A stretch of DNA of 64,000 bases, taken from positions 620,001-684,000 of the forward strand of contig NC_015556.1 in NCBI RefSeq assembly GCF_000213805.1, read 5' to 3'. The stretch's first letter is position 1; each line of letters opens with the position of its first letter. A program made the position numbers and the translations under genes. Origin of the DNA: Pseudomonas fulva 12-X. GTDB taxonomy: Bacteria; Pseudomonadota; Gammaproteobacteria; Pseudomonadales; Pseudomonadaceae. Positions 26,453 to 42,213 of this stretch are shown piece by piece. The notes under the pieces are model-generated. The model saw nothing but the letters and a program-made list of their open reading frames with translations, was not told where the DNA came from and searched no databases.

Positions 26453-27931
26453 ATGATCCACGAAGAATTCCTGCGTTTGGCCGCCGAAGGCTACAACCGC
26501 ATTCCGCTCGCCTGCGAAACCATCGCCGACTTCGACACGCCGCTGTCGATCTATCTGAAGCTCGCCGACGCGCCCAACTCCTACCTGCTCGAGTCGGTGC
26601 AGGGCGGTGAGAAATGGGGGCGTTACTCGATCATCGGCCTGCCGGCGCGCACCGTGCTGCGCGTGCACGGCCACGAGGTAGTGATCACCACCGACGGCGT
26701 GGAAGTCGAGCGTCACCAATGTGCCGATCCGCTGGCCTTCGTTGAGGAGTTCAAGGCTCGATATCGGGTGCCGAGCATCGCCGGCTTGCCGCGTTTCAAT
26801 GGCGGCCTGGTCGGTTACTTCGCCTACGATAGCGTGCGTTACGTCGAGCCCAAGCTGGCCGCCGGGGTGAACCCCGACGCGCTGGGCACGCCGGATATAC
26901 TGCTCAACGTCTCCGATGCCGTGGTGGTGTTCGATAACCTGGCCGGCAAGATGCACGCCATCGTCCTGGCCGACCCCGCCGAAGCCGATGCGTTCGCCCG
27001 TGGCCAGCAGCAGTTGCAGGACATCCTGCACAAGCTGCGTCAGCCGTTCACGCCGCGCCTGGGCGTGGATCTGAACAAGCCGGCGGGCGCCGAGCCGGCG
27101 TTCCGCTCCAGCTTCAGCCGCGAGGATTACGAGCGCTCGGTGGATGCCATCAAGGATTACATCCTGGCCGGCGACTGCATGCAGGTGGTGATTTCCCAGC
27201 GCATGTCGATCCCTTTCAAGGCCGCGCCCATCGATCTGTACCGCGCGCTGCGCTGCATCAACCCGACGCCGTACATGTACTTCTTCAACTTCGGCGATTT
27301 CCACGTGGTCGGCTCGTCGCCCGAAGTGCTGGTGCGTGTCGAGGACAACCTGGTCACCGTGCGCCCCATCGCCGGCACCCGCCCGCGCGGCGCCACCGAG
27401 GAGCAGGACCAGGCGCTGGAGCAGGACCTGCTGGCCGATGCCAAGGAAGTCGCCGAGCACCTGATGCTCATCGACCTGGGCCGCAACGATACCGGCCGGG
27501 TCTCGGAAATCGGCTCGGTGAAGCTGACCGAGAAGATGGTCATCGAGCGTTATTCCAACGTCATGCACATCGTCTCCAACGTCACCGGCGAGCTGAAGCA
27601 GGGCCTGACCTCGATGGACGCCCTGCGCGCCATCCTGCCGGCCGGCACGTTGTCCGGTGCGCCAAAGATCCGCGCGATGGAAATCATCGACGAGCTGGAG
27701 CCGGTCAAGCGCGGCGTCTACGGCGGTGCGGTCGGCTACTACGCCTGGAACGGCAATATGGACACCGCCATCGCCATCCGCACCGCGGTGATCAAGGACG
27801 GCGAGCTGCACGTACAGGCCGGCGCTGGCATCGTCGCCGACTCGGTGCCCGCGCTGGAATGGGAAGAAACCCTCAACAAACGCCGCGCCATGTTCAAGGC
27901 CGTGGCCCTGGCGGAGCAGGGCTCGCTCTGA
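26453..27931 (+). CDS. trpE: Anthranilate synthase component I
   Basis: The 492-residue enzyme uses chorismate and ammonia (from TrpG glutaminase) to make anthranilate, the first step of tryptophan synthesis. Visible hallmarks are the chorismate-binding core ([34 protein letters not shown] and [19 protein letters not shown]) and the N-terminal LLES feedback-inhibition motif ([19 protein letters not shown]). Its partner trpG lies 13.7 kb downstream, separated by the carboxylase operon and the lysis locus. In many Pseudomonas this spacing hosts pyocin genes. Confidence 0.98.
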
Positions 27932-28209: not shown

Positions 28210-29952
28210 TCAGCCTTCTAGCTTGGCCAACGCTGCCCCGGCGTCCAGATAAGCCCCGGCCTGTTCACGGATACGCAGGGTGCCGTCCGCCGGGGCGGTG
28301 ACCTGGGTTTCCATCTTCATGGCTTCCATCACCGCGATCACCTCACCGGCTTTGACCTGGGCGCCGTCCTCGACCAGCCAGGCGTGCAGGTTGCCGGAGA
28401 TCGGCGCGCTGACCAGGCCTTCTTCGGCGGCCGGTGCAGCGGCGCCAGTGGCTACCGGAGCCGCCCGGGCATTGCCGCCCAGAGGCGCCAGACCTTGTAG
28501 CAGCGCGCTCGGCAGGCCCAGTTCGTGGCGCTTGCCGTCGATCTCGATAAAGGTGCGCAGCACCGCATCGCCGCCCACCGACAAGGTGCGCGGTGCCAGG
28601 GTGATCTGCTCGGCGAAGTCGGTTTCGATCCAGCGGGTGTGCACGGCAAAATGCTCAGGGCCGGTAAAGTCGGCGTGGTCCATCACCGCGCGATGGAAGG
28701 GCAGCACCGAGGCGATGCCATCGATCTGGAACTCGGCCAGGGCGCGGCGCGCGCGGGCGATGGCCTGCTCGCGGGTGGCGCCGGTGACGATCAGCTTGGC
28801 CATCATCGAGTCGAAGGTGCCGGGGACCGTCGAGCCACTTTCCACGCCGCTGTCCAGGCGCACGCCCGGACCGCTCGGGGCGCGGAAATCACTGATTTTT
28901 CCGGGGGTGGGCAAAAAGCCTTTGCCGGCGTCCTCGGCGTTGATGCGGAACTCGAAGCTGTGGCCACGTGGCGCCGGTGTTTCACTGAAGGACAGCGGCA
29001 GGCCGTCGGCAATGCGCAATTGCTCGATGACCAGGTCGACGCCAGCGGTTTCCTCGGTGACCGGGTGCTCGACCTGTAGGCGGGTGTTCACCTCCAGGAA
29101 CGACAGGGTGCCATCGGCGCTGAGCAGGTATTCCACGGTGCCGGCGCCGACATAGCCGGCCTTGGCGCAGATGGCGTGGGCGGACTGGTGAATACGCTGG
29201 CGCTGCTCATCGGTGATGAAAGGCGCTGGCGCTTCTTCCACCAGCTTCTGGTTGCGGCGTTGCAGTGAGCAGTCGCGGGTGCCGACCACCACCACGTTGC
29301 CATGGGTGTCGGCGATCACCTGGGCTTCGATATGACGCGGGCGGTCGAGGAACTGCTCGACGAAGCACTCGCCGCGGCCGAAGGCGGCCTCGGCTTCACG
29401 CACCGCCGAGGCATACAGCTCGGCCACTTCGTCCATGCGCCAGGCGACCTTCATGCCGCGCCCGCCGCCGCCGAACGCGGCCTTGATGGCGATCGGCAGG
29501 CCGTGCTGCTCGGCGAAGGCCAGCACTTCGGCGGCGCTCTGCACCGGGCCGGGGGTGCCGGCCACCAGGGGCGCGCCGACCTGCTGGGCGAGCTTGCGGG
29601 CCTCGACCTTGTCGCCGAGCACGTCGATGGTTTCCGGGTTCGGGCCGATCCAGATCAGCCCGGCGCCTTGCACGGCGCGGGCGAAGTCGGCGCGCTCGGA
29701 GAGAAAACCGTAGCCGGGGTGCACGGCATCGGCGCCGGCGCGCTTGGCGATGGCCAGCAGCTTGTCGATGTTCAGGTAGGTGTCGGCCGGGCGCTCGCCG
29801 TCCAGCCCATAGGCTTCGTCGGCGTGGCGCACGTGCAGGGCATCGATATCGGCATTGGCGTACACGGCCACGGAGGCCACACCGTGGTCGCGGCAGGCGC
29901 GGGCGATGCGCACGGCGATTTCACCACGGTTGGCGATCAGGACTTTTTTCAT
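28210..29952 (-). CDS. Biotin carboxylase fused to biotin carboxyl carrier domain
   Basis: The 580-residue protein has the biotin carboxylase ATP-grasp fold ([46 protein letters not shown]) over about residues 1-445 and a C-terminal biotinyl domain with the biotin-accepting lysine in EAMKMET (about 545). It would carboxylate biotin with ATP and bicarbonate. It closes a five-gene operon and overlaps the upstream PxpB/C-type gene by 4 bases. The neighbouring AHS1/AHS2 domains are the kind that transfer the carboxyl group in urea carboxylases, so the pair may form a carboxylase for a lactam or amide substrate (inference). Confidence 0.9.
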
Positions 29953-31562
29953 GGCTGGTTCTTCGCATCGGCAGTAGGAAGGGAGGCGTCGGGCTCGAGC
30001 TCGACGAACGCCGCGATCGGGTTGAAGCGGATCTGCGCGTTGATGGGGATTTGCCCGGCCAGATCCAGATGGTGGCTGGCCACGGCGGCGATCACCGGAT
30101 AGCCGCCGGTCAGCGGATGGTCGGCGAGGAACAGCACCGGCTGGCCGCTGGCGGGCACCTGGATGGCGCCCAGTGAGGTGCCTTCGCTGGGCAATTCGGC
30201 AGGGTTGCAGCGCTCCAGCGGCACCTCGCCCTCGAGGCGAATGCCGACCCGGTTGGATTGCGGCGTGACGCGCCACAGCTGGCTGCTCAGGCGTTCGATG
30301 GCCGCCGGGGTGAACCAGTCGCTGCGCGGCCCCATCACCACATCCAGGGTGATTACGTCCTTTGCGGTAGGCAGCGGGAAAGCCGGGCCTTCACTCGTCG
30401 ATACGCTGCAACCGGCGCTGATCGTATCAAAACCCAGCCGGTCGCCGGCCTTGAGCGGCGGCGGGCCGACCTGGGCCAGGCTGTCGTAGGACAGGCTGCC
30501 CAGCACCGGCGCCACCTGAAAGCCGCCGCGAATCGCCAGGTAGCTGCGCAGCCCTGCCTGGGGCGCGCCGAAGCTGACGCGGTCGCCGTCATCCAGTTCG
30601 ATGGGCTGGTAATTGCCGGGCTGCCACTGCAGGCCGCTGGCGGTGGTGACGGTGACGGGCGTCTGCGCACCGCTGACGGCGATGAGCGTGCGGCCGTGGC
30701 AGACGAAGCTCAGGCCGCCGAGCACCACTTCCAGGCAAGCACAGGCCGAGTCGTTGCCCACTGCGCGGTTGGCGGCGCGCAGGGCACCACGATCCAGCGC
30801 GCCGGACATCGACACGCCCTGGTCGGTATGGCCGGCGCGACCGAGGTCCTGCAGCACCGTTTGCAGGCCGGGGCTGAGGATTTCCAGATAAGCGCCGGTT
30901 GGCGTTTCACCGGCAGTTGGCTGCTCGTGCGTTGGCAAACCACCAGCCGGCAGTGGGCCGGCATCCTGGAAGCGCACCTTGTAGCCGGGGCGCAGCAGGG
31001 CCGGCTCGTCGCGGCCTAAATCCCACATCTGTAGCGGCGTGACGCCGATGATCTGCCAGCCTCCGGGGCTGGCCTTGGGATAGATACCGCTGAAATTGCC
31101 GGCCAGGGCCACGGCGCCGGCTGGAATGCGGGTGCGCGGAGTCTGCCGGCGCGGCACCTGGAAGTCGGCGCCGCCGGCCAGGTAGCCGAAGCCGGGGGCG
31201 AAGCCGCAGAAGGCCACTTCGTAATCGGCGCTGGTGTGGCGGCGCACCACTTCTTCACGGCTGATGCCGAGCAGCCCGGCGACCTCATCGAGGTCCTCGC
31301 CGTTGTAGTGCACGGGGATTTCCACGCGGCGGCTGTCGCGGGCGCTACGTCGGCTCAGGTCGCGGCGGGCGAGATCGTCGATCAACGCCTGGCGGTCGAT
31401 GGCGCTGGGCCGATACTGAATCAGCAGGGTACGGGCCGCCGGGACGATTTCCTCGACCCCGGCGATAGGCTCGGCCTGCAGTGCGTCGAACAGCGCCAGG
31501 GTTTCGTCGAGATCCTGCAGTTCGACGAGCAGCGTATCGAGATTGGCTGGGAGAAAACGCAC
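29949..31562 (-). CDS. Fused PxpB-PxpC (KipI-KipA; AHS1-AHS2) protein
   Basis: Residues about 1-215 match the PxpB/KipI (AHS1) domain ([34 protein letters not shown]) and about 230-520 the PxpC/KipA (AHS2) domain ([32 protein letters not shown]). In separate form these are subunits of 5-oxoprolinase, which hydrolyses 5-oxoproline with ATP to glutamate; in fused form they also occur with biotin carboxylases. A GTG start at 31562 is supported by AGGACA upstream. Which of the two activities is used here is uncertain. Confidence 0.88.
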
Positions 31563-31571
31563 GGGCTTGTC

Positions 31572-32378
31572 CTATACGTGGTACGTGCTGTCAGGCACGT
31601 CGGTGATGAACATATGACCCGGCGAATGGGTGATCGCGAACGGCACGCCGGAGGCCATGACCGCCGCCTGGGGCGTCACCCCGCAGGCCCAGAACACCGG
31701 CACTTCGCCGGGCTCGATGCGCACTGCGTCGCCGAAATCCGGCTTCTGCAGGTCTTCTATGCCCAGCCGCTCCGGCTCGCCGATATGCACCGGAGCGCCG
31801 TGCACCGAGGGATAGCGCCCGGAAATACCGGCCGCCTCGGCGACGCGATCCGCCGGGATCGGCCGCATCGACACCACCATCTCGCCATGCAGGCGGCCCG
31901 CCGGGCGGCAGGCGCGGTTGGTGCGGTACATCGGTACGTTGCAGCCGTCGGCAATGTGCCGCACCTCGATGCCGGCCTCCTGCAGGCCGGTCTCGAAGGT
32001 GAAGCTGCAGCCGATCAGGAAGGTCACCATGTCGGCGTGTTCCGCCCAGGCGGCGGTGGCGTCGCTGACTTCCTCGGCCAGTTTGCCATCACGCCAGATG
32101 CGGTAAAGCGGCAGGTCGGTGCGCAGGTCGGCGCCTTCGGCCAGTACCGTGTACGGGCTGCCGGCGTCACTCACGTCGAGCACCGGGCAGGCTCTGGGGT
32201 TGCGCTGGGCGTAGAGCAGAAAGTCATAGGCCCAGTCGCGGGGCAGGGCGATCAGGTTGGCCTGGGTCATGCCCGGCGCGATACCGGCAGTAGGCGCGAC
32301 GCGGCCGTTGCGGTACTCGGCGCGGGCCTGGCGGGCGGCGGCAATGGCGGCCTGTTGGGCGCGTTGGATGGCGTTCAT
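31572..32378 (-). CDS. DUF1445 putative hydro-lyase (YcsI family)
   Basis: The 268-residue protein matches the DUF1445/YcsI family by the motifs [28 protein letters not shown] and [13 protein letters not shown]. Members co-occur with PxpABC and NRAMP-type transporters and have been linked to D-glutamate or 5-oxoproline metabolism, though the reaction is not established for this protein. Its start overlaps the stop of pxpA by 4 bases. Confidence 0.88.
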
Positions 32379-33145
32379 CGGGCGGCTCCGGCGAAGGATT
32401 GCAGGGATACGCCGGACTGCTCCAGCAACTGGCGCACCTCGCGGGCCATCTGGATGGCGCCGGGGCTGTCGCCGTGCACGCAGATGGAATCGGCTTCGAT
32501 GCGGGTGACGCTGCCGTCGATGGCTTCGACCTCGCCGGTCCGTACCAGGCGCAGCATGCGTTGGGCCACCTGTTCGGCGTCGTGCAGTACGGCACCTGCC
32601 TCGCGGCGCGACACCAGGGTGCCTTGCGGTGTGTAGGCGCGGTCGGCGAAGGCTTCGGCGATGCAGGTCAGGCCTTCGCGGCGGGCCAGCTCGATCAGCG
32701 GCGAGCCGGCCAGGGCGACCAGCACCAGGCGTGCATCGACCGCGCGGATCGCCTCGATCACCGCCATGGCCTGGCGTGTGTCGTGGGCGATGGTGTTGTA
32801 CAGCGCGCCGTGGGGCTTCACGTAGCGCACCGCGGTGCCGGCGGCAGTGGCCAGGGCCTGCAGTGCGCCGATCTGGTAGATCATATCGGCGGACAGCTCG
32901 TCGCTGGCGATATCCATATTACGGCGGCCGAAGCCGACCAGATCCGGGTAGGCGACGTGGGCGCCGATGGTTACGCCTTTGGCCGCAGCGGCCTTGAGGG
33001 TACGCAGGATGCCGGCCGGGTCACCGGCGTGAAAGCCACAGGCGACGTTGGCGCTGGTGACGATGTCGAGCATCGCGGCATCGTCACCCATGGACCACTG
33101 GCCGAAGCTCTCGCCCAGGTCGCTGTTGAGGTCGATGGTTGGCAT
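32375..33145 (-). CDS. pxpA: 5-oxoprolinase subunit A (LamB/YcsF family)
   Basis: The 256-residue protein shows the family N-terminus ([13 protein letters not shown]), the [13 protein letters not shown] loop, [16 protein letters not shown] and VKPHGALYN. PxpA is the subunit that, with PxpBC, hydrolyses 5-oxoproline. AAGGAGAG precedes the ATG at 33145, 12 bases after the transporter gene. Its presence favours 5-oxoproline as the operon substrate. Confidence 0.92.
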
Positions 33146-33157
33146 GTCGTTCTCTCC

Positions 33158-34390
33158 TTAAAGGTTCACGAAGGCGAGGATCGGGCCGACCGATTTGGCC
33201 GCCATGTACCAGGTCAGCAGGCAGGTCAGGGCGCCGAGGACCAGCAGCCAGCGTGGGTAGTGGTAGCCGCCCATCAGGTCGCTGCGGCGCCAGCCCACGT
33301 AGACGAAGATGCTCAGGCCGATGGGTAGGATCAGGCCGTTGAAGCCGCCGGCGAACAGCAGCAACGCCGCCGGCGCGGTGCCCAGGGCAACATAGATGGC
33401 CAGGGACACGGCGATGAACGCCACGGTGGCGATGTTGCGGCCGCGCTCGCTGATGCCGGGCATGAAGGCGGTGATGAACGACATCGAGGTGTAGGCGGCG
33501 CCGATCACGCTGGTGATGGCAGCGGCCCAGAGCACCAGGCCGAAGGTGCGCAGACCCAGCTCGCCAGCGGCGGCCTGGAACGCCTGGGCGGCCGGGTTGG
33601 CGCCTTTGCCGGAGATGTCGATGACCACACCGCTGGCCGCCACACCGAGAATGGCCAGGAACAGCACGTAGCGCATCAGGCCGGTTACCGCGATGCCACT
33701 GAGCGCCGCCTTGGTGACCTCCCTGATGTGCTCCTCGCCGACCAGGCCGCGATCCAGCAGGCGATGGGCGCCGGCGTAGGTGATGTAGCCGCCGACGGTG
33801 CCGCCGACGATGGTGGTGATGATCGCGAAGTTGATCTCGTCCGGCCACACGGTCTGGCGCAGTGCATCGCCCAGAGGCGGGTTGGAGGCGATGGCGACGA
33901 ACAGGGTGAGCAGGATCATCAGCACGCCCAGCACCACGATCAGCCGGTCGACGGCGATGCCGGCGCGTTTGGACAGGAAGATGCCGATGGCCACCAGGGC
34001 GCTGAGTGCGCCGCCCCATTTCGGATCCAGGCCCATCAGCGCATTCAGGCCCAGGCCAGCACCGGCGATGTTGCCGACGTTGAATACCAGGCCGCCAAAG
34101 ATCACCAGTACCGCCAGCAGGTAGCCGCTGCCGGGAATCGCCGCGTTGGCGATGTCCGAGGCGCGCATGCGGGTCAGGGTGACGATGCGCCAGACGTTCA
34201 GCTGCACCACGAAGTCGATGAGGATCGACGCCAGGATGCCGAACGCGAAGGCCGCGCCCATGGTCGCCGTGAAGGTGGCGGTCTGGGTGATGAAGCCGGG
34301 GCCGATGGCCGAGGTGGCCATCAGGAAGATGGCTGCGATCAATGATGAGCGGCGTGAACGGGCGAAATCGGCGGTGGTCTGGGCCTGCAT
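33158..34390 (-). CDS. NRAMP-family transporter
   Basis: This 410-residue membrane protein has about eleven hydrophobic segments and belongs to the NRAMP-like branch (GPGFITQTATFTATMG replacing the usual metal-site DPGN motif). Because the classic DPGN and MPH metal motifs are not evident, the substrate may not be a divalent metal; relatives sit with PxpA/DUF1445 genes. The start at 34390 is preferred to 34447 because CAGGAGTG lies just upstream. It is first in the five-gene operon and divergent from a GntR regulator. Confidence 0.85.
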   Translation of the reverse strand: MQAQTTADFARSRRSSLIAAIFLMATSAIGPGFITQTATFTATMGAAFAFGILASILIDFVVQLNVWRIVTLTRMRASDIANAAIPGSGYLLAVLVIFGGLVFNVGNIAGAGLGLNALMGLDPKWGGALSALVAIGIFLSKRAGIAVDRLIVVLGVLMILLTLFVAIASNPPLGDALRQTVWPDEINFAIITTIVGGTVGGYITYAGAHRLLDRGLVGEEHIREVTKAALSGIAVTGLMRYVLFLAILGVAASGVVIDISGKGANPAAQAFQAAAGELGLRTFGLVLWAAAITSVIGAAYTSMSFITAFMPGISERGRNIATVAFIAVSLAIYVALGTAPAALLLFAGGFNGLILPIGLSIFVYVGWRRSDLMGGYHYPRWLLVLGALTCLLTWYMAAKSVGPILAFVNL

Positions 34391-34487
34391 GGAACACTCC
34401 TGGGCGAAGTAACGGGTGCAGGGTGTAAGGCAATGGGCATGCCACATTGTGAGGAAGCAGCGTGATCTGTTGATTCTAGATGGATTT

Positions 34488-34500
34488 ATTGTTCAACAAT
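34488..34500. promoter_or_regulatory. Candidate GntR operator
   Basis: ATTGTTCAACAAT is a near-perfect inverted repeat (ATTGTT/AACAAT about a central C) in the AT-rich divergent region between the transporter operon and the GntR gene. FadR/FCD-type regulators bind such sites. Confidence 0.5.
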
Positions 34501-34680
34501 CAAATTTGTTTTGAGGGTCTATTTGCACTGTTTTGTTACTTCGATACCCAGCGCTGACTCACCATGGTGCGCAGGGTGACAACACGACCTACTTGCCTGC
34601 AGCGCTGCGCTCGGAGACCATCGAGCCTCTTTGGCTCCGTCTCGACGATATAGAGCCTGGCCAGGTCTGGTGGATCGCTA

Positions 34681-35343
34681 ATGAACAACGACGTATCTGA
34701 AAACCCGCGCACCCTCGGTGAGACCGTGACCGCGGAAATCCGCCGCAAGCTGGTCGAAGGCGAACTGGTGCCGGGGCAGCGACTGTCCGAGGCGGCGCTC
34801 AGCGAAAGCCTGGATATCTCACGCAATACCCTGCGCGAAGCCTTCCGCGTGCTGACCCAGGAGGGTCTGCTCAAGCACGAACCCAACCGCGGCGTCTTCG
34901 TATCGGTGCCGGACATGGCCTCGATCATCGAGATCTACCGGGCGCGGCGTTTCGTCGAATGCCAGGCGCTGGCCCAGGCCTATCCCAAGCATCCGGCGGT
35001 CAAGCGCATGCGCGAGGCAGTGAACGCGGCGCAGCGCAGCGCCAAAGAGCTCGACTGGGGCGCTGTGGGCACCGCCAACATGGCCTTTCACGCGGCCATC
35101 GTCGAACTGGCCGACAGCCAGCGGCTGAATACCTTCTACCGGCACCTGTCCGCTGAGCTGCGCCTGGTATTCGGGCTGCTCAATGACGCCGAATTCCTGC
35201 ACGCGCCCTATATCGACATGAACGCGGCGATTCTCGAGCACCTCGAAGCCGGCCGCCCGCAGGACGCCTCCAAGGCGCTGGACGCCTACCTGGTGCAGTC
35301 CGAACGCACCATCCTGGCCGCTTACGCGCGGCGCGGTTCCTGA
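34681..35343 (+). CDS. GntR-family (FCD) transcriptional regulator
   Basis: The 220-residue protein has an N-terminal winged helix (VTAEIRRKLVEGELVPGQRLSEAALSESLD region, then SRNTLREAFRVLTQEGLL) and an FCD ligand-binding domain (FHAAIVELADSQRLNTFYRH). It is divergent from the 5-oxoproline-type operon and is its probable regulator. Its last 22 bases overlap tail-to-tail with prtN, so the lysis locus begins with no spacer. Confidence 0.9.
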   Translation: MNNDVSENPRTLGETVTAEIRRKLVEGELVPGQRLSEAALSESLDISRNTLREAFRVLTQEGLLKHEPNRGVFVSVPDMASIIEIYRARRFVECQALAQAYPKHPAVKRMREAVNAAQRSAKELDWGAVGTANMAFHAAIVELADSQRLNTFYRHLSAELRLVFGLLNDAEFLHAPYIDMNAAILEHLEAGRPQDASKALDAYLVQSERTILAAYARRGS

Positions 35344-35663
35344 GCCCGCTCCACTTGGTAGCTGCCTGGAGTTTCGGCGCACAGGCTGCCTTCGCCATTG
35401 GCATCGGCGGCTTTGGCGCAGCTGTCGATATAGGCGGCCAGGTGGTGCAGTTCGATGAACTTGGGCGCCTTGGCGCTGCTGTCCAGGGTGGTGATGGGCA
35501 GATTCAGGCGGCCGGTGGCGATGGCGCGGATGAAGTTGTCGGCACTCAGGTGACGGAAGTACACCGTGCGCACGCGGTCGATGGGCACCAGAACGTCGCC
35601 GTGGGTGCGGAATAGAAGCTCCAGCGTCTGGAGCGGCAGGTGCGGCTCAGGCTGAGTGTTCAT
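35322..35663 (-). CDS. prtN: Pyocin activator protein PrtN
   Basis: The 113-residue protein matches PrtN by VLVPIDRVRTVYFRHLSADN, RAIATGRLNLPI and KFIELHHLAAYIDSC. PrtN activates transcription of pyocin/tailocin genes and is itself repressed by PrtR. It lies 49 bases downstream of prtR on the same strand. The C-terminus is about 20 residues longer than the P. aeruginosa protein as I recall it. It overlaps the 3' end of the GntR gene. Confidence 0.85.
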   Translation of the reverse strand: MNTQPEPHLPLQTLELLFRTHGDVLVPIDRVRTVYFRHLSADNFIRAIATGRLNLPITTLDSSAKAPKFIELHHLAAYIDSCAKAADANGEGSLCAETPGSYQVERAQEPRRA

Positions 35664-35712
35664 GGTCGGGCTCGGTATGGGTCAGGTCTCGCTCTGGTTC
35701 ATGGGCGCGCCG

Positions 35713-36372
35713 CTACTCTTCAGCGAAACGCGAGGATTTGAGGATGCCGCCCACCAGGTGAATCTTGGTGACGTTGTCCTGGTGGATGTGAATGGGCGGG
35801 TGGTTCTGGTTGACGCTGTCGAAGCGGTACATGCCGTCGCGCAGGTAGATGTATTCCTTGATCATCGCCTGGCCGTCCAGGGTGCGGACCATCACCTCAT
35901 CGCCGGCATGAAACGGCTTGTTCGGCTCGATCAGCACGTATTCACCGTTCTTGATCCGCGGGTGCATGCTGTCGCCATTGACCCGCAGACCGTAGGCATT
36001 GGGGTCGTCGCTGTGAATGCGCAGGTATCCGTCGCCATGGCCGACGGGAAAGTCGATCTCCTCGAAATATCCCTGAGTACCCAGCTGCGCATGCCCCACC
36101 ACCGGCACCGCACCGCCGCGGGCGTGGCCGACGGCCAGGGTGTTGGCGGGCGGTACTTCTGGCAGTTCGTCGGTGCCTGCCAGCTCGGCAAGGCTCACGC
36201 CGAGCGCCGGTGCCAGCAGCAGCAAGTCCGATAGGGCAGGCTCGCGCAGGTCGCTTTCGTAGTTGCCGATGCGCGACTGGGATGACCAGCCGCAGGCCTC
36301 GGCCAGTTGCTGCTGGCTGAGGCCCTTGCTCTTGCGCAGGCGTTTGATGCGTTGCCCCAGGGTTTCCATCAT
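35713..36372 (-). CDS. prtR: LexA-like pyocin repressor PrtR
   Basis: The 219-residue repressor has an N-terminal HTH (LSQQQLAEACGWSSQSRIG) and a C-terminal S24 peptidase domain with the catalytic serine (S135 in NGDSMHP) and lysine (K172 in AMIKEY). PrtR blocks prtN until RecA-stimulated self-cleavage after DNA damage. The expected cleavage dipeptide Ala-Gly reads Leu-Gly (AQLG, 95-98), so cleavage efficiency or site is open. It is divergent from the lysis genes, with two operator-like palindromes in between. GGAGAG precedes the start; the second Met is equally possible. Confidence 0.85.
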   Translation of the reverse strand: MMETLGQRIKRLRKSKGLSQQQLAEACGWSSQSRIGNYESDLREPALSDLLLLAPALGVSLAELAGTDELPEVPPANTLAVGHARGGAVPVVGHAQLGTQGYFEEIDFPVGHGDGYLRIHSDDPNAYGLRVNGDSMHPRIKNGEYVLIEPNKPFHAGDEVMVRTLDGQAMIKEYIYLRDGMYRFDSVNQNHPPIHIHQDNVTKIHLVGGILKSSRFAEE

Positions 36373-36384
36373 GCTCTCCGATAA

Positions 36385-36440
36385 TCACGTAGTGAAATAT
36401 TTATAGCGCAGTTCTCCGCTTGAATAAAACACGTATCGTG
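36385..36440. promoter_or_regulatory. Two operator-like palindromes between prtR and the lysis operon
   Basis: TCAC-GTA-GTGA (36385-36395) and CACG-TAT-CGTG (36430-36440) are short palindromes with 3-base centres spaced 45 bases apart in an AT-rich promoter region. The related half-sites (TCAC, CACG) suggest a cI-like repressor, most likely PrtR. Binding is inferred. Confidence 0.55.
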
Positions 36441-36533
36441 ATTATTTTTGAAATGGCGATAACCGGCAAGACGCGTGGAGCGACTTGCCGAGAGGTCATA
36501 TCAAACGCCATCGGGGATGGCAGGAGGCAGGCA

Positions 36534-36893
36534 ATGATTTCCTACATAGACGAGGCGCTTCAGCGTTGGGGTGAAGCACAGCAGACGGGCGAAACGGAGC
36601 GAGGCTCGAACATGGGCACCAGCTTGATCGCTTCGCTGATGACATCACAAGGTGTGCTGAATCGCACCGTCCGCGGCAGCCGTGTGCTGGTGGATAGGGC
36701 GACGGAGATCGACTGGATCGTCAGCAAGCATCTTTCCCCCGAGCAGCGCCGGGTGGTCGTCGAGCAGTACTGCACTGCTGAGCCCAGGCGCGAAAAGTGG
36801 ACGGCCTGCGGATGCAGCCGGGCGCAGTTCTATCGACGACTGGGGCAGGCCCACCGGGCCATCGAATCGCAGCTCCTGAAGCGGGCCGCCTGA
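36534..36893 (+). CDS. Antiterminator Q-like / tailocin accessory protein, 119 aa
   Basis: The start MISYIDEALQRWG at 36534 has AGGAGG upstream; the longer open frame from 36420 would start with TTG and cross the operator. The C-terminal half (SPEQRRVVVEQYCT, then CGCSRAQFYRRLGQAHRAI) has the helix-turn-helix look of phage late antiterminators of the Q type and of the gene found between prtR and the holin in pyocin clusters. It is the first gene of the rightward set. Antitermination is inferred from position and pattern, not proven. Confidence 0.65.
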   Translation: MISYIDEALQRWGEAQQTGETERGSNMGTSLIASLMTSQGVLNRTVRGSRVLVDRATEIDWIVSKHLSPEQRRVVVEQYCTAEPRREKWTACGCSRAQFYRRLGQAHRAIESQLLKRAA

Positions 36894-37030
36894 GAGCATA
36901 TCCGCGATCTTTGAGCGCATGAAGAAGCAGCAATAAGGCAGAAGCGGCCATTCGCCAATCTACTGTGGGAGCGGCCGCTCTCGCCACGTGGCTGCCAAAA
37001 TCGATGAACCTGGGCTGCAAGGCCATGAAC
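36891..37030. repeat. Long dispersed repeat, copy B
   Basis: It matches both flanks of the element at 23517-23711 (GCGCATGAAG, AGGCAGAAGCGG, TGGCTGCCAAA and GAACCTGGGCTG-type blocks), but the REP core is reduced to one arm (CTGTGGGAGCGGCCGC). It begins right after the antiterminator-like stop. Confidence 0.65.
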
Positions 37031-37224
37031 AGGCTCTTGGTGCGCTTTTCATTCCTGCCAGCGGCGGTTCTCGCCGCTCGGCCTGTTTCCTTCTCTCAAA
37101 GTATCTGGTTTCCGGATCTCCTTCCGGGCGCTTCCATGGGCGTGCGCTTGCGGTACTGTGCAGCCTGAAACCGCTACGTGTCCGTTGTTTTTCCGGTGCG
37201 TTGCCGCTGATTACCGGCGTGCCC

Positions 37225-37253
37225 TTGAGAGGGTGAGAATCGCGGGTTATACA
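37225..37253 (+). promoter_or_regulatory. Candidate sigma-70 promoter for the lysis genes
   Basis: TTGAGA, a 17-base spacer and TATACA lie about 200 bases upstream of the holin and before the hairpin at 37358. The rest of the 556-base gap (36894-37449) holds the dispersed repeat and no gene. I found no clear PrtN P-box array. Confidence 0.45.
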
Positions 37254-37357
37254 TTCATCACCGTCACAGAGGTGGGCGAGCAGTCAGCCAGCCTCGTGAC
37301 TCAATCCTTGGCAACTCATGCGCCGCGCGGCGCGCTGCAACACCCGACCTTCCTTTA

Positions 37358-37385
37358 ACAGAGCCCCGCCACGTGCGGGGCTCTG
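37358..37385 (+). terminator. Strong hairpin upstream of holin (tR'-like)
   Basis: ACAGAGCCCCGC pairs with GCGGGGCTCTGT (11-12 bp, loop CACG/CACGT). The T-run that follows is weak (CGTTTC). It lies between the candidate promoter and the holin, where an early terminator would be relieved by a Q-like antiterminator. Confidence 0.55.
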
Positions 37386-37449
37386 TCGTTTCAGGGGGCG
37401 GCATAACCTCATGTCGTCGGGGCCATCGGCCTCGGGGAGTACGATAACA

Positions 37450-37800
37450 ATGACTGAATTCAGCAGCGCCGTGCTGTTCGGCGAGCACCTCGCCGCGCTG
37501 ATCGCCCCAATCAATGGCGAGGCTGCACTCGGCGCCTTGTGCGGGGCCCTGGTGTACTTCACCACCACGCAAAATCTGCCCATGTGGAACCGGCTGGCGT
37601 TCTTTCTGACGTCGGCGGTGATGGGGTACCTCTGTGCCCCGGCCATCACCGACTTCCAGCTGCACGGCATCCACCCCTTTGCCTATCCGGGGCCCGCCGG
37701 TTTCGCCGGTGCCGGCTTGGTGGTGACGCTGATGCTGGCCGCCATTCGCCGTCGCGGCGGCAGCCTGAACGACAAGCCGCCAGGCGACCGGGATGCCTGA
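37450..37800 (+). CDS. Phage-type holin
   Basis: The 116-residue protein has three hydrophobic segments (about 24-40, 48-66 and 85-104), short loops and a charged C-terminal tail (RRRGGSLNDKPPGDRDA). That is the form of class I holins and of the holin at the start of pyocin lysis cassettes. Holins open the inner membrane at a set time to release endolysin. GGGGAG precedes the ATG at 37450; the open frame from 37318 runs through the hairpin and is not used. Confidence 0.75.
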   Translation: MTEFSSAVLFGEHLAALIAPINGEAALGALCGALVYFTTTQNLPMWNRLAFFLTSAVMGYLCAPAITDFQLHGIHPFAYPGPAGFAGAGLVVTLMLAAIRRRGGSLNDKPPGDRDA

Positions 37801-37838
37801 CCCGACGCGGCGACTGACAACAACCGCTAACTGAACCC

Positions 37839-37867
37839 GTACGGCGGCGCACTCCGCGCCGCCGTAC
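37839..37867. repeat. Perfect 12-bp stem hairpin between holin and GH5 gene
   Basis: GTACGGCGGCGC pairs with GCGCCGCCGTAC around ACTCC. No T-run follows directly. It may protect or process the mRNA. Confidence 0.7.
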
Positions 37868-37875
37868 TCACCCTG

Positions 37876-37898
37876 GCCCGCCGCTGTGCGGGCTTTTT
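37876..37898 (+). terminator. Terminator-like hairpin before GH5 gene
   Basis: GCCCGC pairs with GCGGGC around a 6-base loop, followed by TTTTT. It lies 19 bases before the GH5 start and would reduce GH5 expression without antitermination. Confidence 0.6.
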
Positions 37899-37917
37899 CA
37901 TATCTGGAGGAAACACC

Positions 37918-39054
37918 ATGGCTATCAAAACCTTTGACCAAATGGCCGCTGCCGGCGAATTCCCGCTGATCGGCTTCAACGCTGCGGGTCTCGGCAACAA
38001 CCCCTACGTCGACCCCATCGCCACGGCAAAGCTGGACACCCACTACTTCACCGTCGCCCCACGCGGCCACCAGCCGGATTACATCAAGTCCTATGCGGGC
38101 AGCATCGGCGGCAAACCCTTCGCCGTGCGCCTGCCATTCGCTGGCGAGCGTATCGCCATTCTCGATGGCGCCGGCGGCTTCACCTTGCGGCAGAGCTATG
38201 TGGAAGAGATCCGCAAGGCCATCCGCCATATCCACAGCTGGGGCGGCTTCTCGCTGCTCGATATGCACAACTACTGCCGCTGGTACGTGCGCGCCAATGG
38301 CCCGGTGAGCGGCCGTGTGGTGCAGGCGTGGAACGGCGGCTACGCCCTGTGGACGGCCATCGGCGCGCCTGATTGCCCGGTCAATTACACCCTGCTGGCA
38401 CGTATCTGGGCGGCCATCGCCCGGGAGTTTCGTGACGAGCCGGGGGTGTTCGGCTACGGCCTGATGAACGAGCCGCACAACCTGGGCAGCGTGCCCGATG
38501 GCGGGGTCAACGTCGAAACCCTGTGGACCAACAACGTGCAGCGGCTGATCACCGCGGTGCGCGAGGTCGACCCGCGACACTTCATCACCGTGGCCGGCAA
38601 TTCCTTCGCCTCGGCCCTGTATTGGCCGCGCAGTTCGGACGCGCTCAAGAACCTGCAGGACCCTGGAGGCCGCCTGCTCTACGAGGCGCACCAGTACCCC
38701 GATAAAGAGGGGCAGGGAGGAGGCAAGTGGACTCAGGCCAATGAGTCGATCGTTTACCGCGAGCGGGTGGCCGACTGGTATCCCTTCATCGACTGGCTCA
38801 AGGCCAACGGCAAGCGTGGTATCGCCGGCGAGTTCGGCGGGCCGGATCACGTGCCCGGTATGCGCACCTACTTCACCGAGCTGCACAAGTATTTCGATGC
38901 CAACCACATCCTGCGCTTTCAGTGGCTGGCCGGCCCCGGCGATGCCGACGACGCGCCCAACGGCATGGACCGCAACGACGGCACCCTCAAACCCAACACC
39001 CGCTCGCTGATGGCGCGTATCGGCAACACCACCACGGCCTACGGCCCTCGCTGA
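37918..39054 (+). CDS. GH5-family endoglucanase-type glycanase inside the lysis cassette
   Basis: The 378-residue protein shows a glycoside hydrolase family 5 barrel: RLPFAGERI (about 71-79), LLDMHNYCRW (113-122), the acid/base in YGLMNEPHN (E185), YEAHQYPD (255-262) and the nucleophile in GIAGEFGG (E305), with WLAGPGD near the end. All expected catalytic residues are present. There is no signal peptide, carbohydrate-binding module or lipobox, so release depends on lysis or on another route. GGAGG lies 8 bases before the ATG. Cellulase-type (beta-1,4-glucan) activity is the usual GH5 role, but the substrate could be another beta-glycan. It sits between holin and endolysin, an unusual place for a polysaccharidase. 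Confidence 0.88.
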   Translation: MAIKTFDQMAAAGEFPLIGFNAAGLGNNPYVDPIATAKLDTHYFTVAPRGHQPDYIKSYAGSIGGKPFAVRLPFAGERIAILDGAGGFTLRQSYVEEIRKAIRHIHSWGGFSLLDMHNYCRWYVRANGPVSGRVVQAWNGGYALWTAIGAPDCPVNYTLLARIWAAIAREFRDEPGVFGYGLMNEPHNLGSVPDGGVNVETLWTNNVQRLITAVREVDPRHFITVAGNSFASALYWPRSSDALKNLQDPGGRLLYEAHQYPDKEGQGGGKWTQANESIVYRERVADWYPFIDWLKANGKRGIAGEFGGPDHVPGMRTYFTELHKYFDANHILRFQWLAGPGDADDAPNGMDRNDGTLKPNTRSLMARIGNTTTAYGPR

Positions 39055-39061
39055 TCCACCT

Positions 39062-39087
39062 CGATGACCCGCTTCGGCGGGTCATCG
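39062..39087 (+). terminator. Hairpin with UUCG loop between GH5 and endolysin genes
   Basis: CGATGACCCGC pairs perfectly with GCGGGTCATCG around TTCG, a very stable tetraloop, followed by CCTTTC. It could be a leaky terminator or an mRNA-stability element. Confidence 0.6.
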
Positions 39088-39111
39088 CCTTTCACTATCC
39101 GGAGAATTCCC

Positions 39112-39651
39112 ATGGCCCGACTTACTGCCACCCAGGCGGGTGGCCACAACGTACTCGCCTTTCTCGACATGCTCGCCTGGAGCGAAGGCACCTCGACCGT
39201 TGCCGAAAGCGATGACGGCTACAACGTGCTGGTAGGCGGCGACCTGTTCGACGACTACAGCGCACATCCGCGTCAGCTCATCGAGCTGCCGCGCTACGAC
39301 ATCCAGTCCACGGCGGCCGGCCGCTACCAGTTTCTGGCCCGCACCTGGGACGCCATCGTTCAGCGCTACAGCTTTCGCGGCCGCTTCACGCCCGAGGCTC
39401 AGGACCTGGCTGCGGTGAAGCTGCTCGAAGAGTGCGGCGCCCTGGCGCCCATTCAGACCGGCCAAGTGGCCGAGGCGATCAGCGCGGCGGCACCCATCTG
39501 GGCCAGCCTGCCGGGCGCCGGCTACGGCCAGCGTGAGCACGATCTCGCTGCGCTGCTACGCATCTACCGACAGGAGCTGGTGGCCCAGGCACGTAACGAG
39601 AATGACCTGCTCGCCATGTTCATCGCCTGCGGCGGGCAGGTGGCGGCATGA
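39112..39651 (+). CDS. Lambda R-type endolysin (GH104-like lytic transglycosylase)
   Basis: The 179-residue protein resembles the lambda endolysin: the catalytic glutamate in LAWSEGTS (about 25), DGYNVLVGG, FDDYSAHPR, STAAGRYQFLARTWD and the helix LLEECGAL. Such enzymes cut the peptidoglycan glycan strand. It has no signal peptide, so it needs the holin to reach the wall. GGAGA precedes the ATG at 39112. The stop overlaps the Rz start by 4 bases. Confidence 0.85.
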   Translation: MARLTATQAGGHNVLAFLDMLAWSEGTSTVAESDDGYNVLVGGDLFDDYSAHPRQLIELPRYDIQSTAAGRYQFLARTWDAIVQRYSFRGRFTPEAQDLAAVKLLEECGALAPIQTGQVAEAISAAAPIWASLPGAGYGQREHDLAALLRIYRQELVAQARNENDLLAMFIACGGQVAA

Positions 39652-40199
39652 ATCTGCTCACACTGATCCCCGCCCGTTATCGATGGCTGATCGGCGGTGG
39701 CCTGGTGCTGGCGCTATTACTTGGCGCCGTCAGCCTCGGCTGGGTGGTGCAGGGCTGGCGCCTGGGTCAGGCGCTGGCCGCGCGCGAACAGTCCCACGCA
39801 GAGGTCATGGCGCGCCTGCACGAGGCAGCCGCTCGTGAAACCCTGCGCGCCCAGAACAAGCGCCTTGCACTCGAGCAACAGCTGCAGGCGTCCTCGCAAA
39901 TCCAATACAGGAGACTTGGCGATGCCCAACAAAAGGCTGCGCGTCTTCGTGATCGTCTTGCCACTGCTGAGCTACGGCTGTCAGTCCTTACCGCCGAACC
40001 CGCAGCTGCCGATGCCGGTCACCACGACCAACTGCCCACCACCGCCAGTGCCGGACGCCTGGTGGATGGCGCCCGACGAGCCGACATTGACCGAGCAGTT
40101 GCTCAACGAATTGTCGCCATCACCGGACGCGGTGACCGCGCCATCATCGCCCTAGGTATGTGCCAGGACTATGTACGGACGCTCGGCGATACGCTCTAG
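39648..40199 (+). CDS. Rz-type inner-membrane spanin
   Basis: The 183-residue protein has one N-terminal membrane segment (about 13-35, WLIGGGLVLALLLGAVSLGW) and a long coiled-coil periplasmic domain (QALAAREQSHAEVMARL onward). This is the form of the Rz spanin, which with Rz1 fuses the inner and outer membranes in the last lysis step. A complete Rz1 gene is nested in another frame. Confidence 0.85.
   Translation: MNLLTLIPARYRWLIGGGLVLALLLGAVSLGWVVQGWRLGQALAAREQSHAEVMARLHEAAARETLRAQNKRLALEQQLQASSQIQYRRLGDAQQKAARLRDRLATAELRLSVLTAEPAAADAGHHDQLPTTASAGRLVDGARRADIDRAVAQRIVAITGRGDRAIIALGMCQDYVRTLGDTL
39922..40155 (+). CDS. Rz1-type outer-membrane lipoprotein spanin (nested in Rz)
   Basis: It is a 77-residue protein fully embedded in Rz in the +1 frame. 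The signal peptide ends in a lipobox LLSYGC (Cys20), and the mature part is proline-rich (SLPPNPQLPMPV, CPPPPVPDAWW), as in Rz1. AGGAG lies before the ATG at 39922. The nested arrangement is the classical Rz/Rz1 pattern. Confidence 0.88.
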   Translation: MPNKRLRVFVIVLPLLSYGCQSLPPNPQLPMPVTTTNCPPPPVPDAWWMAPDEPTLTEQLLNELSPSPDAVTAPSSP

Positions 40200-40234
40200 C
40201 TCAAGGCGTGCGGCGTTGACAGTGGCAATCCTGT

Positions 40235-40258
40235 GCCGGAGAGTGCCCGCTCTCCGGC
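40235..40258. terminator. Terminator hairpin at end of lysis cassette
   Basis: GCCGGAGAG pairs with CTCTCCGGC (9 bp) directly before the stop of the convergent GNAT gene. It has little T-run on either strand, so it may act for both. Confidence 0.55.
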
Positions 40259-41616: not shown

Positions 41617-42213
41617 ATGCTGCTGATGATCGACAACTACGATTCCTTTACCTACAACGTGGTGCAGTACCTGGGCGAGCTGGGTGCCGACGTCCACGTC
41701 ATTCGCAATGACGAGCTGACCATCGCCGAGATCGAGGCGCTCAAGCCCGAGCGCATCGTCGTCTCGCCCGGCCCCTGCACGCCGACCGAAGCGGGCGTGT
41801 CCATCGAAGCCATCCTGCATTTTGCCGGCAAGCTGCCGATTCTCGGCGTCTGCCTGGGCCATCAGAGCATCGGCCAGGCCTATGGCGGCGAGGTGGTGCG
41901 CGCGCGCCAGGTGATGCACGGCAAGACCAGCCCGGTGTTCCATGAAAACAAAGGCGTGTTCGCCGGCCTGGCGATGCCGGTGACCGTGACTCGCTACCAC
42001 TCGCTGGTGGTCAAGCGCGAGACCTTGCCGGACTGCCTGGAAATCACCGCCTGGACGCAGCATGAAGACGGCTCCGTCGATGAAATCATGGGCCTGCGCC
42101 ACAAGACCCTGAACGTCGAGGGCGTGCAGTTCCACCCTGAATCGATCCTGACCGAGCAGGGTCACGAACTGTTCGCCAACTTCCTCAAGCAGACCGGAGG
42201 CGTGCGCCCATGA
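41617..42213 (+). CDS. trpG: Anthranilate synthase component II (glutamine amidotransferase)
   Basis: The 198-residue class I glutaminase has the oxyanion region [11 protein letters not shown], the nucleophile in [11 protein letters not shown] (C80 region) and the His/Glu pair in VQFHPESIL. It supplies ammonia to TrpE. It overlaps trpD by 4 bases. Confidence 0.97.

Follow-up and report, generated by a model that had tools for sequence, protein, structure and literature searches.

What would a bacterium gain from maintaining a complete phage-type lysis cassette under pyocin-type regulators without a particle to release? This question is raised by a locus of Pseudomonas fulva 12-X located in a stretch of 64,000 nucleotides (NC_015556.1, positions 620,001 to 684,000; hereafter the window) of its single-contig genome of 4.92 Mb. 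A preliminary description, made from the DNA alone, had presented the locus as a bare lysis cassette under PrtN/PrtR control. That view was corrected in one respect, the word bare, by the finding of a previously overlooked gene, encoding a GH5 endo-beta-1,4-glucanase-like enzyme, at 37918-39054 and thus inside the interval that had been reported. We consider it probable that the module is a PrtR-gated lytic device that frees a cytoplasmic GH5 cellulase, in a manner akin to both the type 10 secretion system (T10SS) and the Alp system of P. aeruginosa. The genes of the module are as follows, in their order along the DNA:

35322-35663, minus strand: prtN, pyocin activator family (PF11112, E 3.7e-30)
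35713-36372, minus strand: prtR, XRE and Peptidase_S24 repressor (PF01381, 7.2e-15; PF00717, 7.7e-19; phrog_4)
36534-36893, plus strand: orfQ, PA0613/phrog_4300 family, candidate Q-type antiterminator (phrog_4300, 3.9e-27; weakly the Q-like phrog_79, 0.077)
37450-37800, plus strand: holin with hydrophobic stretches (PF16931, 3.8e-10; phrog_198)
37918-39054, plus strand: GH5 endo-beta-1,4-glucanase-like enzyme, the proposed cargo (PF00150, E 4.4e-27)
39112-39651, plus strand: endolysin without a transmembrane stretch (phrog_90, E 3.9e-48)
39648-40199, plus strand: Rz inner-membrane spanin (phrog_2466, E 5.6e-39)
39922-40155, plus strand: Rz1, the spanin lipoprotein of the outer membrane, its gene embedded in that of Rz in a different reading frame (phrog_3198; lipobox-like LSYGC)

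Comparison with Pfam and PHROGs bore out all of the genes described previously (prtN, prtR, the antiterminator-like gene, holin, endolysin and nested Rz/Rz1), coordinates included, while the Pfam search of the endolysin yielded nothing above the cut-off. The reported lack of tail genes was likewise upheld, as none of 19 tail reference proteins matched in the window (tblastn, E<=1e-3). The module consequently possesses the regulators expected of a tailocin, i.e. prtN and prtR between trpE and trpG, and a lysis cassette, but not the tail genes. It also possesses the gene set of a T10SS, namely a holin, a peptidoglycan hydrolase and spanins outside a phage, with a candidate substrate gene (GH5) within the set.

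The GH5 protein is 378 aa in length, scores 95.7 bits against PF00150 (cut-off 23.5), and its predicted model has a mean pLDDT of 94.0. The best matches of this model in the PDB are Cel5A of P. stutzeri (6r2j, 4lx4), followed by RBcel1, the superposition on Cel5A giving a TM-score of 0.75 by query and 0.86 by target. Fold and active-site residues are common to the GH5 protein and these endoglucanases; it differs from them in sequence (28% identity to Cel5A), in being encoded inside a lysis operon and in its lack of a signal peptide. Eight residues (R71, H117, N184, E185, H258, Y260, E305 and W336), which we take to be the GH5 signature, are invariant in an alignment of 39 relatives, E185 and E305 presumably forming the catalytic glutamate pair. 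No signal-like hydrophobic stretch was found within the first 40 residues of any of 12 orthologues (best 12-residue mean 1.25-1.47), and a second GH5 protein of the same genome, encoded at 4.164 Mb, begins with a hydrophobic stretch (1.96). A search for BcsB in the genome was negative (the control matched in 2/14 genomes), and the host's own cellulose is therefore an unlikely substrate.

A scan of named genomes produced 20 pattern matches, 11 of which encode the GH5 relative; all 11 belong to Pseudomonas and are 82-97% identical. These loci include all seven named species assigned to Phytopseudomonas by NCBI (flavescens, straminea, argentinensis, seleniipraecipitans, punonensis, daroniae and dryadis) in addition to four other strains; the carriers represent a group of plant-associated Pseudomonas. 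The order prtN-prtR-orfQ-holin-GH5-endolysin-Rz/Rz1 is retained in each of the 11, which indicates that the arrangement is not due to chance. Furthermore, 10 of these loci show trpG and eight show part of trpE, the remainder ending with the available stretch. The window most resembles P. straminea (92.7% across a length of 21.6 kb). Among 398 genomes of Pseudomonas (in the GTDB sense), the GH5 gene was detected in eight at a threshold of E<=1e-60, in every case with orfQ (66-100% identity) at most 1.5 kb upstream. An orfQ relative of any degree is present in 67 of the 398, the matches outside the eight being 32-48% identical, and no close orfQ (>=66%) without GH5 was encountered in this sample.

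The median ratio of nonsynonymous to synonymous substitution (dN/dS) relative to the window, over 11 comparisons, is 0.060 for prtR, 0.080 for GH5, 0.084 for the holin, 0.146 for the endolysin, 0.171 for prtN, 0.180 for orfQ and 0.380 for Rz; trpD and trpG display values of 0.040 and 0.044 (10 comparisons). The sole internal stop among the module genes is a slightly early C-terminal end of prtN in P. flavescens, and the earlier argument that the locus is not in decay is thereby sustained. When 12 regions of 11 genomes were compared with the reference set for other particle-less PrtN loci, no GH5-like case emerged; one candidate (G108) was discarded upon reading, as it contains a tape-measure-like and a gpD-like gene. 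A literature search of limited extent, and hence a weak negative, turned up no earlier report of a GH5-carrying pyocin-type lysis module. Judged by these sequence comparisons, the module is genus-wide, selected and particle-less, with the GH5 gene in the apparent cargo position.

The candidate control elements of the module, obtained from an alignment of 12 sequences and a terminator scan, are the following:

36382-36444, between the divergent prtR and orfQ: inverted repeat TAATCACG (36382-36389) / CGTGATTA (36437-36444), candidate PrtR operators
37225-37253, plus strand: sigma-70-like promoter candidate TTGAGA-17-TATACA with conserved spacer
37358-37386, plus strand: 12-bp terminator-like hairpin with a weak U-tract, before the holin gene (found in 11/12)
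37875-37899, plus strand: intrinsic terminator GGCCCGC-N6-GCGGGCT-TTTT, before the GH5 gene (terminator scan)
39062-39087, plus strand: terminator-like hairpin between the GH5 and endolysin genes (found in 12/12)

All eight positions of the TAATCACG arm are identical in 12/12 sequences, as are seven positions of the CGTGATTA arm, of which the first position is kept in 10 or 11. The P-box motif was not found in this alignment. The ATG at 36534 is the conserved start of orfQ, as opposed to the start of the longer open reading frame at 36420. The predicted structure of OrfQ, a model of modest confidence, is closest to antiterminator Q of phage 21, and comparison of OrfQ with PDB sequences returned no credible match. 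In the late promoter candidate TTG.G and TATA.A are kept in 12/12 and the following 30 bases are 93% conserved, while a stricter consensus promoter scan did not list it; a further conserved block (81% over the 12 sequences) lies upstream at 37043-37073. With respect to the hairpin before the holin gene, two pairs are changed on both sides (nine distinct rows, omitting P. flavescens, L061, in which no such stem was found), a count that 122 of 500 shuffles also reached, and the covariation score of 0.199 compares with a mean of 0.100 in the shuffles (0/500). The hairpin before the endolysin gene has four pairs changed on both sides (10 distinct rows, omitting L060, which differs in length), a count reached by 32/500 shuffles, and scores 0.291 against 0.124 (0/500). 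The element GCCCGC-N6-GCGGGC with a T-run precedes GH5 in all 12 loci, and the scan from which it derives listed four terminators against 2.9 in shuffles, scarcely above chance. Candidate operators and hairpins are conserved across loci down to 81% DNA identity.

RecA-stimulated self-cleavage is known for PrtR of P. aeruginosa, and the Ser/Lys dyad is present in PrtR of the module, Ser being found in 120 and Lys in 118 of 121 aligned subfamily members. The cleavage site of LexA is Ala-Gly or Cys-Gly, whereas the presumed site of PrtR is Leu-Gly in 119 of the 121; the notion that a broken site reflects a clade-specific loss of the SOS response was accordingly rejected, as Leu-Gly is general in the subfamily. 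In P. aeruginosa, the PrtR variant S162A is not cleavable and pyocin activity is abolished (PMC8609362). By analogy with other members of the repressor family, DNA damage would be a likely trigger of the module.

From these features we infer the regulatory steps, lysis, release and substrate that follow. Via the inverted repeat that they share, PrtR would silence both the prtR-prtN operon, to which it belongs, and the divergently oriented orfQ. Its inactivation in some cells by RecA-stimulated self-cleavage would allow PrtN and OrfQ to be made, and OrfQ would then let polymerase starting from the late promoter (approximately 37225-37253) pass the hairpins before the holin, GH5 and endolysin genes. 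GH5 would build up in the cytoplasm until the holin, endolysin and spanins lyse the cell, thereby freeing the enzyme for neighbouring cells.

Such a device would work in the manner of a T10SS. These systems are clusters of holin, endolysin and spanin genes that do not belong to a phage and serve to release large proteins; in Yersinia and Serratia the release of cargo folded in the cytoplasm was shown to be lytic (PMC10847048). Serratia ChiWXYZ, Yersinia YenLC and the Salmonella ChiA operon (PMC10847048, PMC10109510) share with the module a holin and a peptidoglycan hydrolase, often with a large extracellular enzyme nearby, and the Serratia and Yersinia systems also share the spanins. The cargo of these systems is a chitinase or a Tc toxin as opposed to the proposed GH5, and they are governed by LysR, PhoB/OmpR or ChiR-type regulators, unlike the module with its PrtR-type repressor and antiterminator-like protein. 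The Yersinia system is called SOS-insensitive by its authors (PMC10847048), and export of Salmonella ChiA via the holin and hydrolase of its own operon is reported to be non-lytic (PMC10109510).

The regulatory logic may also resemble that of Alp in P. aeruginosa, for which PMC7969949 and PMC9371919 describe a repressor-gated antiterminating positive regulator, a terminator before the first lysis gene and the absence of a particle; the putative counterparts of the first two in the module are the S24 repressor with its candidate operators, the conserved hairpins and the possibly Q21-like OrfQ. The AlpA element GGGACG was not seen in the spacer of the module. The module has an endolysin, spanins and an enzyme gene, whereas AlpB was still without an assigned endolysin according to PMC8131026. 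Could the module then be an Alp-like programme of self-lysis, in which lysis itself is the function (for public goods, extracellular DNA or an abortive response to phage), with GH5 carried along as a passenger whose only effect is to loosen the polysaccharide surrounding a lysing cell? A particle-less lysis set under a LexA-like repressor is indeed known for alpBCDE (PMC7969949), and every lysis gene of the module is conserved. Conversely, GH5 is as constrained as the holin and accompanies the module in all 11 named loci, and the 398 genomes contain no close orfQ from which GH5 is missing; we therefore regard this explanation as unlikely, though it is the strongest of the alternatives. The altruistic lysis proposed in the preliminary description thus retains its particle-less lysis set, but is incomplete as an account because the module carries the GH5 gene, for which enzyme release is a more economical explanation.

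A shared lysis unit for tailocin genes elsewhere was the other function proposed earlier; the partner might also be a prophage, or adjoin the module. One lysis cassette does serve the dual R-F clusters of P. aeruginosa (PMC9810705). The genome of P. fulva 12-X was searched for sheath and for Baseplate_J and contains neither (each control matched in 3/14 genomes), and the idea that the cassette also frees a contractile particle is thus not needed for this strain and was rejected; a search for the F-type tube was also empty, but lacked a positive control. The genome does contain a prophage with a tape measure near 1.55-1.585 Mb, which further encodes a terminase, a portal and a phrog_198 holin, while its candidate endolysin and spanins (three genes) match only PHROGs of unknown function. 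Additional PrtN matches were rejected as candidate tailocins, since that at 1.552 Mb (L048) falls within this prophage and that at 2.259 Mb (L045) adjoins integrase-like and conjugation-like genes. PHROGs labels the PrtN family as excisionase (phrog_1300), and PF11112 by itself is therefore no mark of a pyocin locus. Among the eight module genomes, sheath is absent from five and present in three, and the one sheath cluster examined (G001) has its own holin and endolysin according to PHROGs. Similarly, 10 of the 11 named loci contain no match to the 19 tail reference proteins; the exception is P. flavescens (four matches), in which a second locus lies directly downstream of the GH5 module:

L061 12402-21134 and L098 4177-20232: second PrtN locus and F-type tail cluster of P. 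flavescens

It encodes a second PrtN, an S24 repressor, a phrog_4300 protein and a phrog_198 holin, followed by a tail terminator, major tail protein, tape measure, minor tail proteins, a J-like protein and a fibre. Within the 16.5 kb covered, no gene could be recognised as an endolysin; this leaves aside approximately 240 bases of the viral contig and what remains of the bacterial one. Shared lysis finds its best case in P. flavescens, where it may hold, but it leaves GH5 unexplained, and as a general account we judge it slightly less likely again than Alp-like self-lysis.

The site itself was described as lying between trpE and trpG, and these flanks were indeed found (26453-27931 and 41617-42213, respectively), but 7.4 kb lie between the end of trpE and the stop of prtN, with a 5-oxoprolinase-like pxp cluster, a transporter and a regulator of the GntR/FCD type in this space (28210-35343). 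The gap between Rz and trpG holds an acetyltransferase and a kinase-like gene in the window, as against a gene that reads as histidine-kinase-like in two species (L052 12285-13535 and L057 12309-13625). A comparison of the interval in relatives, as the preliminary description had proposed, revealed no tail genes in near relatives: among 12 relatives picked by trpD identity, the junction is empty in nine and holds metabolic genes only, without a lysis module, in three. Three further genomes (G018, G077 and G115), picked since sheath and PrtN occur near trpD, carry an R-type cluster at the site. In G077 the order is a phrog_4300 gene, a hol-like gene (phrog_2658), sheath, tube, tape measure, baseplate, fibres, endolysin (phrog_181), Rz (phrog_2466) and trpG, so that tail genes fill the slot which GH5 fills in the window. 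A G+C hairpin with a T-run could also be read just before the holin gene of G077. R- and F-type tailocins are hence akin to the module in their site, their prtN/prtR-type regulators, their PA0613-family gene and the order of holin, endolysin and Rz, and unlike it in having tail genes in the place of GH5.

Two observations weigh against the reading of the module as a dedicated device for enzyme release that arose by simple exchange of cargo. Firstly, the F-type cluster of P. flavescens may share the lysis cassette of the GH5 module, which would then not be exclusive to the enzyme. Secondly, the holin and endolysin of G077 belong to families other than those of the window (phrog_198 and phrog_90), and the repressors of the two are strongly different; the module therefore represents an equivalent arrangement and no proof of a one-step swap, with the orfQ and Rz families common to both. 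When the holin of the window is compared with the one encoded by the F-type cluster of P. flavescens, 83 residues show 54% identity, and on this sequence evidence an F-type ancestor of the module is possible.

The module could alternatively be a remnant of a tailocin or prophage that lost its tail genes, GH5 being a former tail-borne depolymerase that is now drifting. The nearest GH5 proteins beyond the clade (34-58% identical) are longer, at 406-635 aa, as are those of the lytic Stutzerimonas phages ZQG1 and ZRG1 (583 and 585 aa; 44% and 41% identical over 96% of the query), which have an extra N-terminal part that may have been lost from the module's enzyme. The genes of these two phages, unlike that of the module, are not beside lysis genes, adjoining portal or unassigned phage genes, and no link of GH5 to lysis was seen in phage contexts. 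Low dN/dS values, the absence of a broken gene and the conservation of operators and hairpins all argue against drift, rendering this explanation improbable. Least probable is a role for GH5 as a helper of the spanins that cuts the capsule or matrix polysaccharide holding the lysing cell, since, despite its position between holin and endolysin and its co-conservation with them, the enzyme has no signal peptide and would reach such a polymer only once the cell is open, and its fold matches endoglucanases.

Release of a cellulase through PrtR-gated lysis thus remains the reading that we favour. More tentatively, the trpE-trpG pyocin frame may have been rebuilt across Phytopseudomonas as a stress-gated, SOS-coupled T10SS for a cellulase, armed by Q-type antitermination, whereby the death of a few cells would provide kin with a plant- or matrix-degrading enzyme. 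More broadly still, the position between the holin and endolysin genes at this site might constitute a general cargo bay that evolution fills with particles or enzymes. If true, this would join bacteriocin release with lytic protein secretion, in that a pyocin-type circuit would drive the release of an enzyme in place of a killing particle. It would also make the PA0613 family a likely antiterminator in pyocin loci generally, and would provide a genus-wide natural case for when self-lysis pays.

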